Virus record (IMG/VR): IMGVR_UViG_3300042691_032310
Location: 1-23,913 of that record
Source: a virus
Strand: one strand, 5' to 3'
DNA: 23,913 nt
Shown: one piece after another, positions 11,084 through 21,839 of the stretch
How positions within the stretch are numbered: the stretch's first letter is position 1
Layout: each line of letters begins with the position of its first letter
The notes under the pieces: generated by a model
The model's input: the letters and a program-made list of their open reading frames with translations, nothing else
Told to the model about the DNA's origin: nothing
The model's database searches: none
Translations under genes and position numbers: made by a program

Positions 11084-11113
11084 AAAGGGGAGCCAAGCTC
11101 CCCTTTATTTTTT
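11084..11113. terminator. Rho-independent terminator between convergent operons
   Basis: A perfect 10-bp stem (AAAGGGGAGC / GCTCCCCTTT) with a CAA loop lies between the convergent tape-measure and gp32 genes. It is followed on the plus strand by ATTTTTTA. A run of A on the other side gives a U-run for the minus strand, so it can stop transcription from both directions. Confidence 0.9.
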
Positions 11114-12017
11114 ATTCTTCTTGAGCAATCTTTTCGAAGAATGACATCACATCGTCTTCATCATCATTGATCTCTGGGATCTTTGGTGCTTGTTTTGATG
11201 CGATCTTTGGTGCAGAAACACTAGCTGGTTCATCGTCTGCAATTTCAGCAGCAGACTGAACAACAAATGTATCACCAGACAACACTTCATCTAGTTTACG
11301 TTTCAATTCATCGTAAGATTTAAAGTTCTTACGATCGTTAAACTCAGCAAGTTTGTGCTCAGAATTAACAATGTTAAGAAGTGTATTCTCATCATCAGAT
11401 ACAACAGATGGTTCCATAAATACAGATTCATCATAGTTAGTAAAACCATCTTTCTTGCGCATACGTAGTTTGAAGTTTGCACCTTCCCACAAATCGAATA
11501 CGTTTACTGGTTTCTCATCTTCATAAGTTGGACGTGCTTTGTCCATAATCTTATCAAAGATCTTTTTACCAAATTTGAAGAGGAATACTTTACCTTCGTT
11601 CTCTGGATGTTTTGGGTCAGAAACAACAAGAATGTTAGCAATGTAAGACAGACGACGTTTCTGTTTACGAACAATTTCCTTGTTAGCTTCAGAACCTGTG
11701 TTCCAAAGTTTAGTGTTTAATTCTGAAACAGGATCTGCTTCATTAAGAGTGGTTAAAGAGTTTTCAATATACCACTTACCAGTTGGTCCTTGAAAACCGT
11801 GATGAAATATCCGAACCCATGGTAGTTCGTCACTCTCTGTTTTAGGAAGAAAACGGATAGTGGCTGTGCCATTACCTGCTTTGTCTCCCTCTAGTCGCCA
11901 AAAGCGATCATCAGAAAAACCTTTTTGTTCAGATTGGGGATTTGCGATTTTCTCAAACTCTCCAGCGATTTTACTGAAGTCTTGAGTACGCATTTTGCGT
12001 AGTGATTGAATGTCCAT
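11112..12017 (-). CDS. 32: gp32-like single-stranded DNA-binding protein
   Basis: A 301-aa protein, the same length as T4 gp32. The N-terminus has the basic LAST-like stretch SLRKMRTQ (5-12) for cooperative binding. The core has FWRLEGDKAGNGTATIRFLP, FHHGFQGPTGKWYIENS, KQKRRLSYIANILVVSDPKHPENEGKVFLFKFGKKIFDK. The C-terminal tail is acidic (INDDEDDVMSFFEKIAQEE), as needed for partner proteins such as gp59. T4 gp32 binds zinc through His64, Cys77, Cys87 and Cys90. Here the equivalent Cys positions are Ser87, Asp95 and Ser98, so the zinc site is lost. AAAGGAA precedes the ATG. It lies close to gp59 and gp33 as in T4. Confidence 0.95.
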   Translation of the reverse strand: MDIQSLRKMRTQDFSKIAGEFEKIANPQSEQKGFSDDRFWRLEGDKAGNGTATIRFLPKTESDELPWVRIFHHGFQGPTGKWYIENSLTTLNEADPVSELNTKLWNTGSEANKEIVRKQKRRLSYIANILVVSDPKHPENEGKVFLFKFGKKIFDKIMDKARPTYEDEKPVNVFDLWEGANFKLRMRKKDGFTNYDESVFMEPSVVSDDENTLLNIVNSEHKLAEFNDRKNFKSYDELKRKLDEVLSGDTFVVQSAAEIADDEPASVSAPKIASKQAPKIPEINDDEDDVMSFFEKIAQEE

Positions 12018-15767: not shown

Positions 15768-15953
15768 TTACCAAGTACCATCATCGATAACCAATCTAAA
15801 CCAAACTGGTCCACCATGAATAGAGAAGCCGAAAATTACATCGTCTTCCAGTATACTTTCTGAACCAGTTTTAATTTTAAATTCCCAATGGTAAGGATTG
15901 AGAACAATTCCCATCCATATTCCAGAATATTTAAGATAAGTCTTTAACCTCAT
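15768..15953 (-). CDS. Small hypothetical protein overlapping the ClpP-like gene
   Basis: A 61-aa protein rich in aromatic residues (GIWMGIVLNPYHWEFKIKTG, FGFSIHGGPVWFRLVIDDG). It begins inside the last codons of the ClpP-like gene (23-nt overlap), with AGGA about 9 nt before its ATG. It looks like a small beta-sheet protein. No family recognised. Confidence 0.6.
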   Translation of the reverse strand: MRLKTYLKYSGIWMGIVLNPYHWEFKIKTGSESILEDDVIFGFSIHGGPVWFRLVIDDGTW

Positions 15954-16488
15954 CGCATAATCCTAATTTTTTAGCTTCAGTTGGGCTTAACCACATATCT
16001 TGCGGAGGAAGTAGAATCTCTCGAATTTTTGCCTCTGCCAATCCAGTACATTTTTTATAATGTTGTATCATTTTTTTAGTAGTTAAGTCGAACTCTTTTA
16101 CGGTTGCAAATAACTCGTGTTCTTTACCAAACGCACCCCAAGAATATTGATGAGAAAGAATAGAAGTGTTTGGTGTAAGAATACGATGCCCTTTAGTTCC
16201 AGCGATAAAAATCATTAATCCTGCTGACGCAATTTGACCAAGTCCAATAGTCCTGATTGGAATAGAGGATCCTCTCATAGCATCAATTAGTGCAAAAGCA
16301 GAATTAAGATCTCCTCCTGGAGATGTTATAACTAAATTTAGTAACTCTGGTTTTTTTTCATTAAAGTTACATTCAAATATCCACTCTACAGTTTGTTTCA
16401 CGGAGGATAATGAAATTTCTTCCATTAAAAGAAAATATGAATGTGAAGACTGTTCTTCTTTAAGCTGTAGATTTAATTTTTGCATCAT
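15931..16488 (-). CDS. ClpP-like serine protease
   Basis: A 185-aa protein with the ClpP/crotonase fold pattern. The catalytic triad is visible: Ser88 (GQIASAG), His113 (SILSHQYS) and Asp163 (PPQDMWLSPTEA). The spacing (25 and 50 residues) is almost that of E. coli ClpP. ITSPGGDLNSAFALIDAM at 54-71 is the usual substrate-groove strand. No signal peptide; cytoplasmic. It lacks the N-terminal processing region of host ClpP. It is not next to capsid genes, so a prohead-protease role is unlikely; it could act with host Clp ATPases or change host proteolysis (inference). Coupled to the upstream hydrolase gene by TAATG. Confidence 0.85.
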   Translation of the reverse strand: MMQKLNLQLKEEQSSHSYFLLMEEISLSSVKQTVEWIFECNFNEKKPELLNLVITSPGGDLNSAFALIDAMRGSSIPIRTIGLGQIASAGLMIFIAGTKGHRILTPNTSILSHQYSWGAFGKEHELFATVKEFDLTTKKMIQHYKKCTGLAEAKIREILLPPQDMWLSPTEAKKLGLCDEVKDLS

Positions 16489-18639: not shown

Positions 18640-18658
18640 AACAACCTATAAAATTGGT

Positions 18659-18827
18659 GGTAAGTTATTCTGTTACGAGGAAACTTACCGAAACCCTAAG
18701 CAGCGTTTAGGCTGCTAATGCGTAAACTTCATCGTTTGCGTTTACTTTGATTTGCTTCATTTACGACGATCGCCTGTCGTGCTGTCCACTCTGTTACTCA
18801 TTGCCCTGTCGAAACCTAGTCATCCCC
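18659..18827 (-). other. tmRNA coding piece (5' end of mature tmRNA with tag reading frame)
   Basis: It begins with G at 18827 and holds the D-loop-like start (GACTAGGTTTCGACAGGG), the upstream sequence AGTAAAC before the resume codon, and the tag. An 8-bp hairpin (18659-18666 with 18682-18689, GGTAAGTT / AACTTACC on the minus strand) closes the 3' end. That hairpin may be a remnant pseudoknot stem or a transcription stop; the following T-run is short. Confidence 0.85.
18707..18739 (-). other. tmRNA proteolysis tag ANDEVYALAA
   Basis: Resume codon GCA at 18737-18739, then AAC GAT GAA GTT TAC GCA, TTA GCA GCC and stop TAA at 18707-18709. With the charged alanine the tag is A-ANDEVYALAA, ending ALAA, the signal read by ClpXP. 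It is closer to the gamma/betaproteobacterial ANDExYALAA type than to the longer tags usual for alphaproteobacteria. Confidence 0.93.
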
Positions 18828-18889
18828 ATCAGAAGTATATTGCCACTTTCGTGTTTGCTTCCAGAATACTCGGATCGTCAATATACTTT
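18828..18889 (-). other. tmRNA intervening segment (removed between acceptor CCA and 5' G)
   Basis: 62 nt join the CCA end to the 5' G of the coding piece. The segment closes on itself through a perfect 10-bp stem (18833-18842 with 18879-18888, AAGTATATTG / CAATATACTT), which would stack on the acceptor stem. This is the expected precursor form of permuted tmRNA genes. Encoded CCA means no nucleotidyltransferase is needed. Confidence 0.85.
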
Positions 18890-18953
18890 TGGTGGAGATG
18901 GTGGGAATCGAACCCACGTCCAGAACACCTTTCTCATCGCTTCATACAGCAAT
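18890..18953 (-). other. tmRNA acceptor piece
   Basis: About 64 nt from the predicted transcription start near 18953 to the encoded CCA (18890-18892). It contains GATGAGAAAGGTGTTCTGGAC, the T arm and the 3' acceptor strand. Its 5' end may be trimmed; the exact mature start is not visible. Confidence 0.8.
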
Positions 18954-18960
18954 TCTATTA

Positions 18961-18989
18961 ATTATACTCTAATTTAGAATTAAAAGCAA
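18961..18989 (-). promoter_or_regulatory. Sigma70-type promoter of the tmRNA gene (copy 3)
   Basis: On the minus strand: TTGCTT (18984-18989), a 17-nt spacer (TTAATTCTAAATTAGAG), TATAAT (18961-18966). Transcription would start near 18953, directly at the tmRNA acceptor piece. It closely resembles the early promoters at 15116-15144 and 15454-15482, so the tmRNA is probably made early. Confidence 0.85.
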
Positions 18990-19284: not shown

Positions 19285-19676
19285 ATATTGTTCTCTGTTT
19301 TATATGGTTTGAACTGATTTTGTGCATATGTTGTTAAATCACCAGTATGCCAAATAACATTTACCAATGGAACTATTTTTATATTTGGATCGCCAACTGG
19401 AGCATCTTGTATATTAGGAGTATTCCAACATCCTTCATGAATGGTTCCGTCTGGTTCAGTAGCATATGCTCTACTAGAAAATTGTTTTTTAATTTTATCT
19501 TCTAGTTTACATTCATCAAGTGTCAATATAATTTGGCCACCTGCTTCATTTGGCATTGATAATTCTTTATATTGACTATAATCAATTGCGCTCGCATCAT
19601 CTATCATGAAAAAAAATAAAACTGCAGTGACAAATAAAATTACATAATAAATTATGTTTTTTATAAATTCTTGCAT
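19281..19676 (-). CDS. Membrane-anchored Cys-pair protein
   Basis: A 131-aa protein. Residues 8-30 form a membrane anchor or signal (IIYYVILFVTAVLFFFMIDDA). The outer part has IILTLDECKLED, SSRAYATEPDGTIHEGCW, NVIWHTGD and NQFKPYKTE, matching block by block the protein at 18991-19284. The start ATG lies inside the end of the nuclease gene (16-nt overlap). Probably faces the periplasm. Function unknown. Confidence 0.75.
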   Translation of the reverse strand: MQEFIKNIIYYVILFVTAVLFFFMIDDASAIDYSQYKELSMPNEAGGQIILTLDECKLEDKIKKQFSSRAYATEPDGTIHEGCWNTPNIQDAPVGDPNIKIVPLVNVIWHTGDLTTYAQNQFKPYKTENNI

Positions 19677-20314
19677 CTTCGATATTCCTCCCTTAATGAG
19701 ATAAATCCATTAATCCAATCGTCTCGTTTTTCTTTGAAAATTAATGGTGTGCTATTTTCTACTGCCATTATAATCACGAGGCGATTCACTGGAATACGAG
19801 TTAATTCTTCAAAAGCAACTGCATATGCTGCAGTCTGCATAAAATAATTATGTATGTCGTCTCTTTTCTTTACTCTCGATGATGTCTTAAAATCAATAAT
19901 CGAGAGATTACCTTCATATTCTGCAATACAATCAACAGTTCCTGCTACTTTTAAATAGTCAGAGTATAATGGTGATTCTAATGCATGAATATTGTCTATC
20001 CTATCAAGATAAGGAATAATACTACTAAACATTTCCTTATCAAATATATCTGGAACAATATTTTCACCCAACAAATAATGTTCACAAAGATTATGTATTC
20101 TTGTGCCTCTAATTGCAGCACGATTAGAAACTCTGTTGGCTTCTTCATCACCAACACGTTTTCTCCATTCTAAAATGGAATCTTTATTATATAAACTGGT
20201 AACAGTTGTTACACTTGGATAAGAAAAACCCGATGGTGTTAAATATGTTCTAGATCCATCGTGGTTTGTCTCACGTTTCAATTCACCGAATTCATGATGT
20301 ATAAATGTTTTCAT
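19661..20314 (-). CDS. PD-(D/E)XK nuclease, RecB/Cas4-like
   Basis: A 217-aa protein. Early RGTRIHNLCEHYL gives His74 and Glu78. The active-site core is VAGTVDCIAEYEGNLSIIDFKTS with Asp128, Asp141 and Lys143. The later QTAAYAVAFEE block is the usual RecB-family Gln-Tyr motif. This is the PDDEXK_1 exonuclease type found in many phages, likely for recombination, repair or host DNA turnover. There is no Cys cluster for an iron-sulphur centre like that of Cas4. The ATG overlaps the endolysin stop (TAATG). Confidence 0.85.
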   Translation of the reverse strand: MKTFIHHEFGELKRETNHDGSRTYLTPSGFSYPSVTTVTSLYNKDSILEWRKRVGDEEANRVSNRAAIRGTRIHNLCEHYLLGENIVPDIFDKEMFSSIIPYLDRIDNIHALESPLYSDYLKVAGTVDCIAEYEGNLSIIDFKTSSRVKKRDDIHNYFMQTAAYAVAFEELTRIPVNRLVIIMAVENSTPLIFKEKRDDWINGFISLREEYRRCKNL

Positions 20315-20934: not shown

Positions 20935-21044
20935 TTTTTAAGTAATGATAAAACCTTATCTTTTAATGATGCAACACAAGCTGGCATAGCAACATGCCAA
21001 CCTACTAGTAATCCTACTACTGCTCCTAAAACGAATAATGTCAT
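20931..21044 (-). CDS. 37-aa membrane protein, holin candidate
   Basis: A very short frame: MTLFVLGAVVGLLVGWHVAM then PACVASLKDKVLSLLKK. One Gly-rich membrane helix (2-18) and a basic amphipathic C-terminus. AGGAGG lies 6 nt before the ATG. It overlaps both PhoH and endolysin genes (ATGA at each end). Position and shape fit a small holin or pinholin, but no experimental or family evidence is available. Confidence 0.75.
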   Translation of the reverse strand: MTLFVLGAVVGLLVGWHVAMPACVASLKDKVLSLLKK

Positions 21045-21829
21045 TTGTGACCTCCTTGTTCATTAATGTCTTCGTACCTTAATTTAGCCAAGATGTAATC
21101 CTTGACCAAAGAACTTCTTACAATATCATCTGTAGTAAACTCAATACGTGTAAATGCATGCATATGTTGTGAAATATCAAAGAACTTCAGAATACCTGTC
21201 ATATCATTCTTTTTCTTATTTAAATCAGTCTGGCGATAATCTCCACACCAAATAATTTTAGAACGATACCCAACACGTGTCATAACAGTATCAATTTCTT
21301 CAAATGTTAAATTTTGCATTTCGTCAACGATAATAATTGCATCATCAAATGACATACCACGAATGAATGATGTAGAAATAAACTCTATGTGGTGTTGTTC
21401 CTCTAATCTATCATATGCATCCTTACGTGCAAATAATGTTTCGCAAATTTGACGATACGGTTGTTGATAGATTTCCATCTTTTCAGAAACATCTCCTGGA
21501 AGATGACCAATTTCACGTGACTGGACTGCTGACCTAACAATAATAATTTTATTAAAAGGATTTCCCTTATCTAAAACTTCTTCTATTGCTTTGTATAAAG
21601 CAATGAATGTTTTACCTGTACCAGCTACTCCGTGTAATGCTACGAAATAATCTCCTCTTTTATAAGCATCAAAAAACTTCTTCTGATTATCAGTTAGTGG
21701 TTGAAATGATTTTAAATCATCTATCCTTAAACGTAAATGATTACTAACTAATTTATTATTTTTATTATTTTCTCTTAGCTCACCGTGTTCATACTCTGAT
21801 AATTTTACTACTGCTGGTTTTCGAGCCAT
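21041..21829 (-). CDS. phoH: PhoH-like ATPase
   Basis: A 262-aa protein from the ATG at 21827-21829, with AAGGAAG upstream; a TTG one codon earlier is less likely. After a polar N-terminus comes LTDNQKKFFDAYKRGDYFVA, Walker A GVAGTGKT (67-74), RSAVQSREIGHLPGDVSEK, Walker B IIIVDE (165-170) and a final RSSLVKDYI. PhoH proteins are P-loop ATPases common in marine phages, related to the helicase/RNA-binding PhoH family. Their role in infection is unclear. It sits in the same operon as the lysis genes. Confidence 0.93.
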   Translation of the reverse strand: MARKPAVVKLSEYEHGELRENNKNNKLVSNHLRLRIDDLKSFQPLTDNQKKFFDAYKRGDYFVALHGVAGTGKTFIALYKAIEEVLDKGNPFNKIIIVRSAVQSREIGHLPGDVSEKMEIYQQPYRQICETLFARKDAYDRLEEQHHIEFISTSFIRGMSFDDAIIIVDEMQNLTFEEIDTVMTRVGYRSKIIWCGDYRQTDLNKKKNDMTGILKFFDISQHMHAFTRIEFTTDDIVRSSLVKDYILAKLRYEDINEQGGHK

Positions 21830-21839
21830 CAAAACTTCC

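Follow-up and report, generated by a model that had tools for sequence, protein, structure and literature searches.

Two-piece (circularly permuted) ssrA genes, which encode transfer-messenger RNA (tmRNA), have already been published for the Methylophilales phage Melnitz, together with the prevalence of two-piece tmRNAs among aquatic phages (PMC9004378), and a 2025 tmRNA database paper reports one tRNA-Ala within an intervening sequence, which it terms unique, as well as one repetitive element (PMC11915505). Here we describe a permuted tmRNA gene on the minus strand (18655-18989) of IMG/VR virus record IMGVR_UViG_3300042691_032310, of which the 23,913 bases analysed (about 23.9 kb) are referred to as the window. 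A phage two-piece tmRNA is in itself a known kind of molecule; the window member is beta-type and distinct from the Melnitz gene, though it occupies the same locus. What sets this group of genes apart is the intervening sequence (IVS) between the acceptor and coding pieces, which is exchanged among related phages as a unit, independently of the rest of the tmRNA gene. An exchangeable IVS with a conserved, unclassified RNA module looks to be undescribed, as far as we have checked; our search, which mostly stopped short of subscription papers, found no literature on open reading frames (ORFs) or modules within tmRNA intervening sequences.

A permuted tmRNA gene and its locus

The window contains a complete permuted tmRNA gene, far beyond what chance would produce. 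Each of the elements that the first-pass annotation had read from the letters of the sequence is present and can be mapped by coordinates on the strand (Table 1). The covariance models RF04321 (150.3 bits, E 3e-30, with a curated threshold of 47) and RF01850 (149.7 bits, E 2e-46, threshold 84) both match over their full length, and an independent ARAGORN call, also of a permuted tmRNA, gives the identical tag, ANDEVYALAA. The acceptor stem GGGGATG/CATCTCC pairs at seven of seven positions, with G3.U70 in place and an encoded ACCA following; the IVS is exactly 62 nt, the coding piece starts with GGGGATGAC, and the tag runs from GCA to TAA with the resume codon and stop expected of an RF04321 tmRNA. 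Folding of the acceptor stem and IVS departs from that of shuffled sequences (z = -4.3). A pattern search for the gene that allowed a gap of 30-60 nt gave no match, because the real gap is longer.

The gene is phage-encoded, as had been proposed: the contig in which ARAGORN and Rfam place it also encodes gp32 (phrog_224), gp59 (PF08993), PhoH, a PD-(D/E)XK exonuclease, a ClpP-like protease, a tail-tube protein, endolysins and a cell-wall hydrolase. No DNA-level match of the window to isolated phages was found. Comparison of gp32 gives Pelagibacter phage HTVC008M and Melnitz as the closest isolates, at about 51% each, and the window phage is a distant relative of these two, a T4-like myophage.

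In most contigs covering the region the gene order is phoH-(lysozyme)-exonuclease-tmRNA-...-cell-wall hydrolase-(ClpP)-gp59-gp32; Melnitz keeps the core of the phoH...gp32 order, and HTVC008M has phoH-exonuclease-tmRNA, its gp32 gene being close to the beginning of the linear record. Among 29 contigs that were chosen by phoH alone and span the interval from the exonuclease to gp59/gp32, ARAGORN calls a permuted tmRNA in 23 and no tmRNA in the other six.

A G-U pair at position 3-70 is the identity pair of alanyl-tRNA synthetase (AlaRS). It is found in all 120 distinct permuted genes, 118 of them scored automatically and two, L134 and L140, whose stems read CATCTCC, set right after script parsing errors; of two stem parsers used, one required a U at position 70 and the second, on which this count is based, did not. 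The acceptor stem pairs in all 120, and pairs 4-6 occur as G-C, C-G, A-U and U-A, so that the changes are compensatory. The invariant G3.U70 and the compensatory stem changes argue for charging of the phage genes by AlaRS. The relatives have 47 types of tag, for the most part with an ALAA or LAA ending. Two further permuted tmRNAs (L202, 855-1245; L093, 3671) have odd, long ARAGORN tags such as AKASTGEVTVSAKNLKFRTLAAKGQSLAV, which are likely to be mis-called tags or altered coding pieces, and in L113, L090 and L136 a tRNA-like sequence lies directly upstream of the acceptor piece.

The subtype of the gene differs from that of its isolated relatives. Judged by Rfam model scores, on which the alpha/beta assignment rests, the window tmRNA is beta-type (149.7 bits, versus 70.1 for alpha; clan competition kept beta_tmRNA, RF01850, as best), whereas those of Melnitz (106.7 bits alpha, 25 beta) and HTVC008M (83.8 alpha, 56 beta) are alpha-type. 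One locus thus carries an alpha-type gene in the marine isolates and a beta-type gene in the window and most related contigs, and either an ancestral gene diverged or one was replaced in place. The suggestion that the gene might belong with those of Melnitz and the SAR11 phages is therefore borne out for the backbone and locus, which are related by gp32 identity and gene order, but not for the tmRNA itself. The likeness consists of a permuted gene in related T4-like phages, shared in position as well: phoH and the PDDEXK exonuclease lie upstream of it, and it is placed on the gp32 side of the block. The differences, besides subtype, are in IVS content and in the glutamine riboswitch, common though not universal in the Melnitz/SAR11-phage alpha group, for which the window has no match at the gathering threshold. 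The HTVC008M gene (KC465899.1, 145161-145370; tag ANFNEYALAA) is unannotated in GenBank and overlaps the end of a hypothetical coding sequence.

With the betaproteobacterial permuted ssrA (RF01850), represented by that of Cupriavidus plasmid NZ_CP017753.1, the window gene shares piece order, T arm, PK1, 3' hairpin and promoter position. The Cupriavidus gene scores higher, at 231.7 bits, and has an IVS of 31 nt rather than 62 nt with a module. A search of a genome collection covering 84,980 species of bacteria and archaea gave no phage-type T-arm strings (AGGTGTTCTGGACG-type).

The first-pass annotation had also placed the gene behind its own strong promoter. The site is there, with a perfect -10 and a 17-nt spacer, but 'strong' is not warranted, as TTGCTT matches the -35 consensus at only three of six positions; a promoter scan of the window did not list the TTGCTT/TATAAT site. 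The closest relative, L157 (L-numbers are labels of the compared related records), keeps the -10 and the spacing (TTGCCT-17-TATAAT), the promoter region of the window aligns with the RF01850 consensus, which includes a promoter, and TATAAT lies just upstream of only 26 of 116 phage genes (shuffles: mean 7, maximum 16). We consider an own promoter plausible, with a weak -35 element.

The intervening sequence and its contents

Across the 120 distinct permuted genes the IVS ranges from 26 to 175 nt in length, and in most it is closed by an outer helix (mean 10.1 bp, versus 3.4 in shuffles). Its exchange is apparent from pairs of genes that disagree in either direction: there are 19 pairs with IVSs less than 60% identical though their coding pieces are at least 93% identical, and 74 pairs with coding pieces below 75% though their IVSs are at least 95% identical, these being counts and not frequencies in a pair set gathered partly by IVS pattern. 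For example, L089 and L112 have coding pieces 99% and acceptor pieces 98% identical, and where one carries a 138-nt ORF the other carries a 65-nt RNA module. L006, whose divergence is inflated by an insert in the coding piece, was not used for this comparison. IVS identity also shows no clear relation to that of gp32, phoH and the exonuclease (Mantel 0.07, -0.01 and 0.07, respectively).

The contents of the IVS are diverse. In 76 distinct genes from scans not selected on the IVS they comprise a dozen recurrent RNA types, 23 singletons and 12 with ORFs. The type in the window, which we call module a, has the order P1 - GACGA - P2 - AGCAAACA - P3 - UGGC - P1' in an alignment (A1) of 28 copies, forming a three-way junction, and compensatory double changes are seen in nine of 13 predicted pairs, including U-A/A-U at the foot of P2 and six of the seven outer P1 pairs. 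A covariance model (R1), which the sequences that built it match by construction, gives the window module 69.1 bits, and over 1.13 Mb its matches are confined to the interiors of tmRNAs and to sites just 5' of tRNAs. A pattern search found 38 distinct copies in tmRNAs, two in tmRNA-like contexts and five before tRNA genes; in the last group a tRNA-Gly, -Cys, -Tyr or -Met gene follows at 26-40 nt, measured from the end of the AGCAAACA string, and the module itself ends some 10-20 nt before the tRNA. Eight further matches of this degenerate pattern in coding DNA with no tRNA or tmRNA context were regarded as chance and not counted as members.

Two other modules, b and c, show similar behaviour: module b is found both in tmRNAs and in tRNA spacers, and module c is nearly always in tmRNAs. 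Rfam 15, including its known ribozymes and riboswitches, yields no match for modules a-c beyond the tmRNA itself and matches at chance level. In phage tRNA arrays, copies of modules b and c come after the CCA end of a tRNA (L370, 5085-5120; L371, 13804-13839; L326, minus strand), with long inverted repeats on both sides, CCATATAAAAGTAATTTC ... GAAATTACTTCTATATGG, of which the CCA is part. A GTAGTCCGAAAGGATCAAGAGATAATTTCAAAGACC-like module is within the IVS in L024 and within the coding piece, upstream of the tag, in L006 (15917-16330), and L105 has an enlarged IVS region with a partial duplication of the acceptor end and a tRNA-like fragment.

Because module a also sits before phage tRNAs, it is most likely an element of tRNA and tmRNA precursors that aids folding, processing or protection, or one that spreads by recombination among such sites. 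The tRNA-Ala-containing tmRNA (PMC11915505) is similar in having a functional-looking element inside the IVS, but the phage IVSs differ in holding an unclassified structured RNA, in the small protein genes of relatives, and in their repeated exchange. Group I intron-bearing tmRNA genes likewise contain a removable insert; here, by contrast, the insert lies between the CCA and the 5' end, is no group I intron, as it has no Rfam match, and is presumably removed by tRNA-type processing.

The IVSs of some relatives, though not that of the window, carry small ORFs that would encode proteins of 26-50 amino acids. Most of the 'ORFs' in short IVSs are not credible, as they run on into the coding piece, and we kept six families with a long IVS and an ATG about 10-15 nt after the CCA, plus that of Melnitz; several of the six end in a TGA overlapping the GATGGGG junction. 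In the YWVY (L123/L089; pS 0.71, pN 0.27) and KYK (L068/L082; pS 0.71, pN 0.21) families, where pS and pN refer to synonymous and nonsynonymous differences, the substitutions fit purifying selection in the ORF frame only. The YWVY and KPTE families also have free-standing relatives at other sites (immediately 5' of the tmRNA in L009, L041, L052 and L071; L030 and L014), and a copy of the KYK family in L080 is not placed in a called tmRNA. For the two families searched, no homologues were found in isolated phages at E 0.05. In Melnitz (L171/L175, MZ577097.1; tmRNA annotated at 45984-46436) a 54-codon ORF, with a predicted product beginning MFKWLSK, starts inside the IVS behind a GGAG-like Shine-Dalgarno site, and no coding sequence is annotated there.

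Table 1. Positions of the tmRNA gene, its parts and the neighbouring marker genes in the window
Feature	Position	Strand	Evidence and remarks
Promoter-like TTGCTT-17-TATAAT	18961-18989	minus	TATAAT 18961-18966; TTGCTT 18984-18989; 17-nt spacer
Acceptor piece	18890-18951	minus	cmscan RF04321 and RF01850; start approximate, RNA 5' end inexact
Acceptor piece, 5' pairing strand		minus	
Acceptor piece, T arm	18899-18922	minus	
Acceptor piece, CATCTCC (acceptor 3' strand)	18894-18900	minus	
Acceptor piece, ACCA	18890-18893	minus	
IVS, 62 nt	18828-18889	minus	sequence; presumably removed upon cutting of the precursor
Module a, within IVS	18833-18888	minus	alignment of 28 sequences, covariance model R1, pattern search
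Module a, P1	18880-18888 with 18833-18841	minus	
Module a, GACGA	18875-18879	minus	
Module a, P2 hairpin	18860-18874	minus	
Module a, AGCAAACA	18852-18859	minus	
Module a, P3 hairpin	18844-18853	minus	
Coding piece	18656-18827	minus	cmscan RF01850, ARAGORN; 3' end approximate
Coding piece, G1	18827	minus	
Coding piece, GGGGATG (acceptor 5' strand)	18821-18827	minus	
Coding piece, PK1 hairpin	18763-18781	minus	
Coding piece, 3' hairpin	18659-18689	minus	
Tag reading frame ANDEVYALAA, stop	18707-18739	minus	ARAGORN and sequence
PhoH-like protein	21041-21832	minus	phrog_170 E 8e-84, synteny; conserved upstream locus marker
PD-(D/E)XK exonuclease	19661-20314	minus	phrog_298 E 2e-74, PF12705, synteny; conserved upstream neighbour of the tmRNA, including in Melnitz and HTVC008M
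ClpP-like serine protease	15931-16488	minus	PF00574 E 1.6e-28; downstream of the tmRNA, same strand
gp32-like single-stranded DNA-binding protein	11112-12017	minus	phrog_224 E 3e-103; right-hand marker of the conserved block

A plausible role in ribosome rescue and competing explanations

We think it very probable that the phage encodes here a functional permuted tmRNA gene of beta type. A single precursor would be transcribed, host tRNA-processing enzymes would remove the IVS, and the two pieces would stay paired; host AlaRS would charge the acceptor, and host SmpB and EF-Tu would deliver the tmRNA to stalled ribosomes. The appended ANDEVYALAA would then lead to degradation by host ClpXP or by the phage ClpP-like protease, for which a role as partner for ALAA-tagged proteins is possible. 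The benefit to the phage would probably be the recycling of ribosomes stalled on mRNAs cleaved in host takeover, and such a rescue role for the phage tmRNA is plausible. Neither the window nor any of 23 other phage records gave a match to SmpB (PF01668), and the SmpB used is therefore presumably that of the host. The single SmpB match comes from L106 (IMGVR_UViG_2903405734_000002, 215 kb), a record derived from the genome of a bacterial isolate, which has both a one-piece ssrA and smpB and probably contains bacterial chromosome besides virus.

Several points weigh against this picture. The six spanning contigs with no tmRNA show that the gene is dispensable. Coding-piece identity correlates weakly with that of gp32 (Mantel 0.17), at 0.21 with phoH and moderately with the exonuclease (0.43), values low for vertical descent, and recombination of the whole gene is therefore frequent. 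The contig is a fragment, and SmpB may be encoded elsewhere in the genome. We also infer transcription, processing and tagging during infection from sequence, and a part played by module a in processing is conjectured from its position only.

An alternative in which the tmRNA is a takeover device, its tag directing particular host or phage proteins to the phage ClpP-like protease, draws on the position of the ClpP-like gene downstream on the same strand, its 73-94% conservation in relatives, and an apparently intact Ser/His/Asp triad, located by eye in the translated sequence. However, many tmRNA-bearing relatives have no ClpP match, L016 and L062 have ClpP with no tmRNA, and bacterial ClpXP suffices for ALAA tags, and we regard this explanation as unlikely. 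The absence of SmpB from the phage records examined would also suit a decoy role, in which the molecule would titrate SmpB or compete with the tmRNA of the host instead of rescuing ribosomes, as proposed for the tag-less molecule of phage DS6A (PMC11915505); the DS6A molecule lacks the tag part, whereas the window gene keeps its tag, resume region and hairpins, and a decoy would have no need of the predominantly ALAA or LAA endings seen across the tag types of relatives, which makes this quite improbable. That the gene was picked up from host ssrA by chance, or is a scar of it, with no phage function, for instance from imprecise prophage excision, is strongly disfavoured and very improbable: ssrA is a common bacterial integration site, prophage-derived ssrA fragments are known (PMC9004378), and six spanning relatives lack the gene, but it is complete and keeps its place in many divergent phages, HTVC008M and Melnitz among them, its acceptor stem has compensatory changes around an invariant G3.U70, and strings of its type of T arm were not found in the bacterial and archaeal collection.

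The working tmRNA gene would also provide room for other sequences: because the IVS is discarded, it would be a tolerated docking site for cassettes. We put forward, tentatively and as somewhat short of an even prospect, that the IVS is a site at which RNA modules and small genes are swapped, and that module a represents a new class of structured RNA, common to tmRNA interiors and tRNA arrays, with a dedicated activity, be it self-cleavage, ligand or protein binding, or mobility. The cultured phage Melnitz, with an ORF that begins within its own IVS, makes part of the cassette idea accessible to experiment.

Phage tmRNA has previously been treated as a curiosity, and here it is conserved and positionally fixed in a large T4-like lineage. 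The difference in alpha/beta subtype between relatives at one locus bears on the exchange of ssrA between phages and hosts. A swappable IVS, if true, would be a new viral use of the discarded part of a stable RNA, carrying genes and RNAs without breaking the tmRNA.
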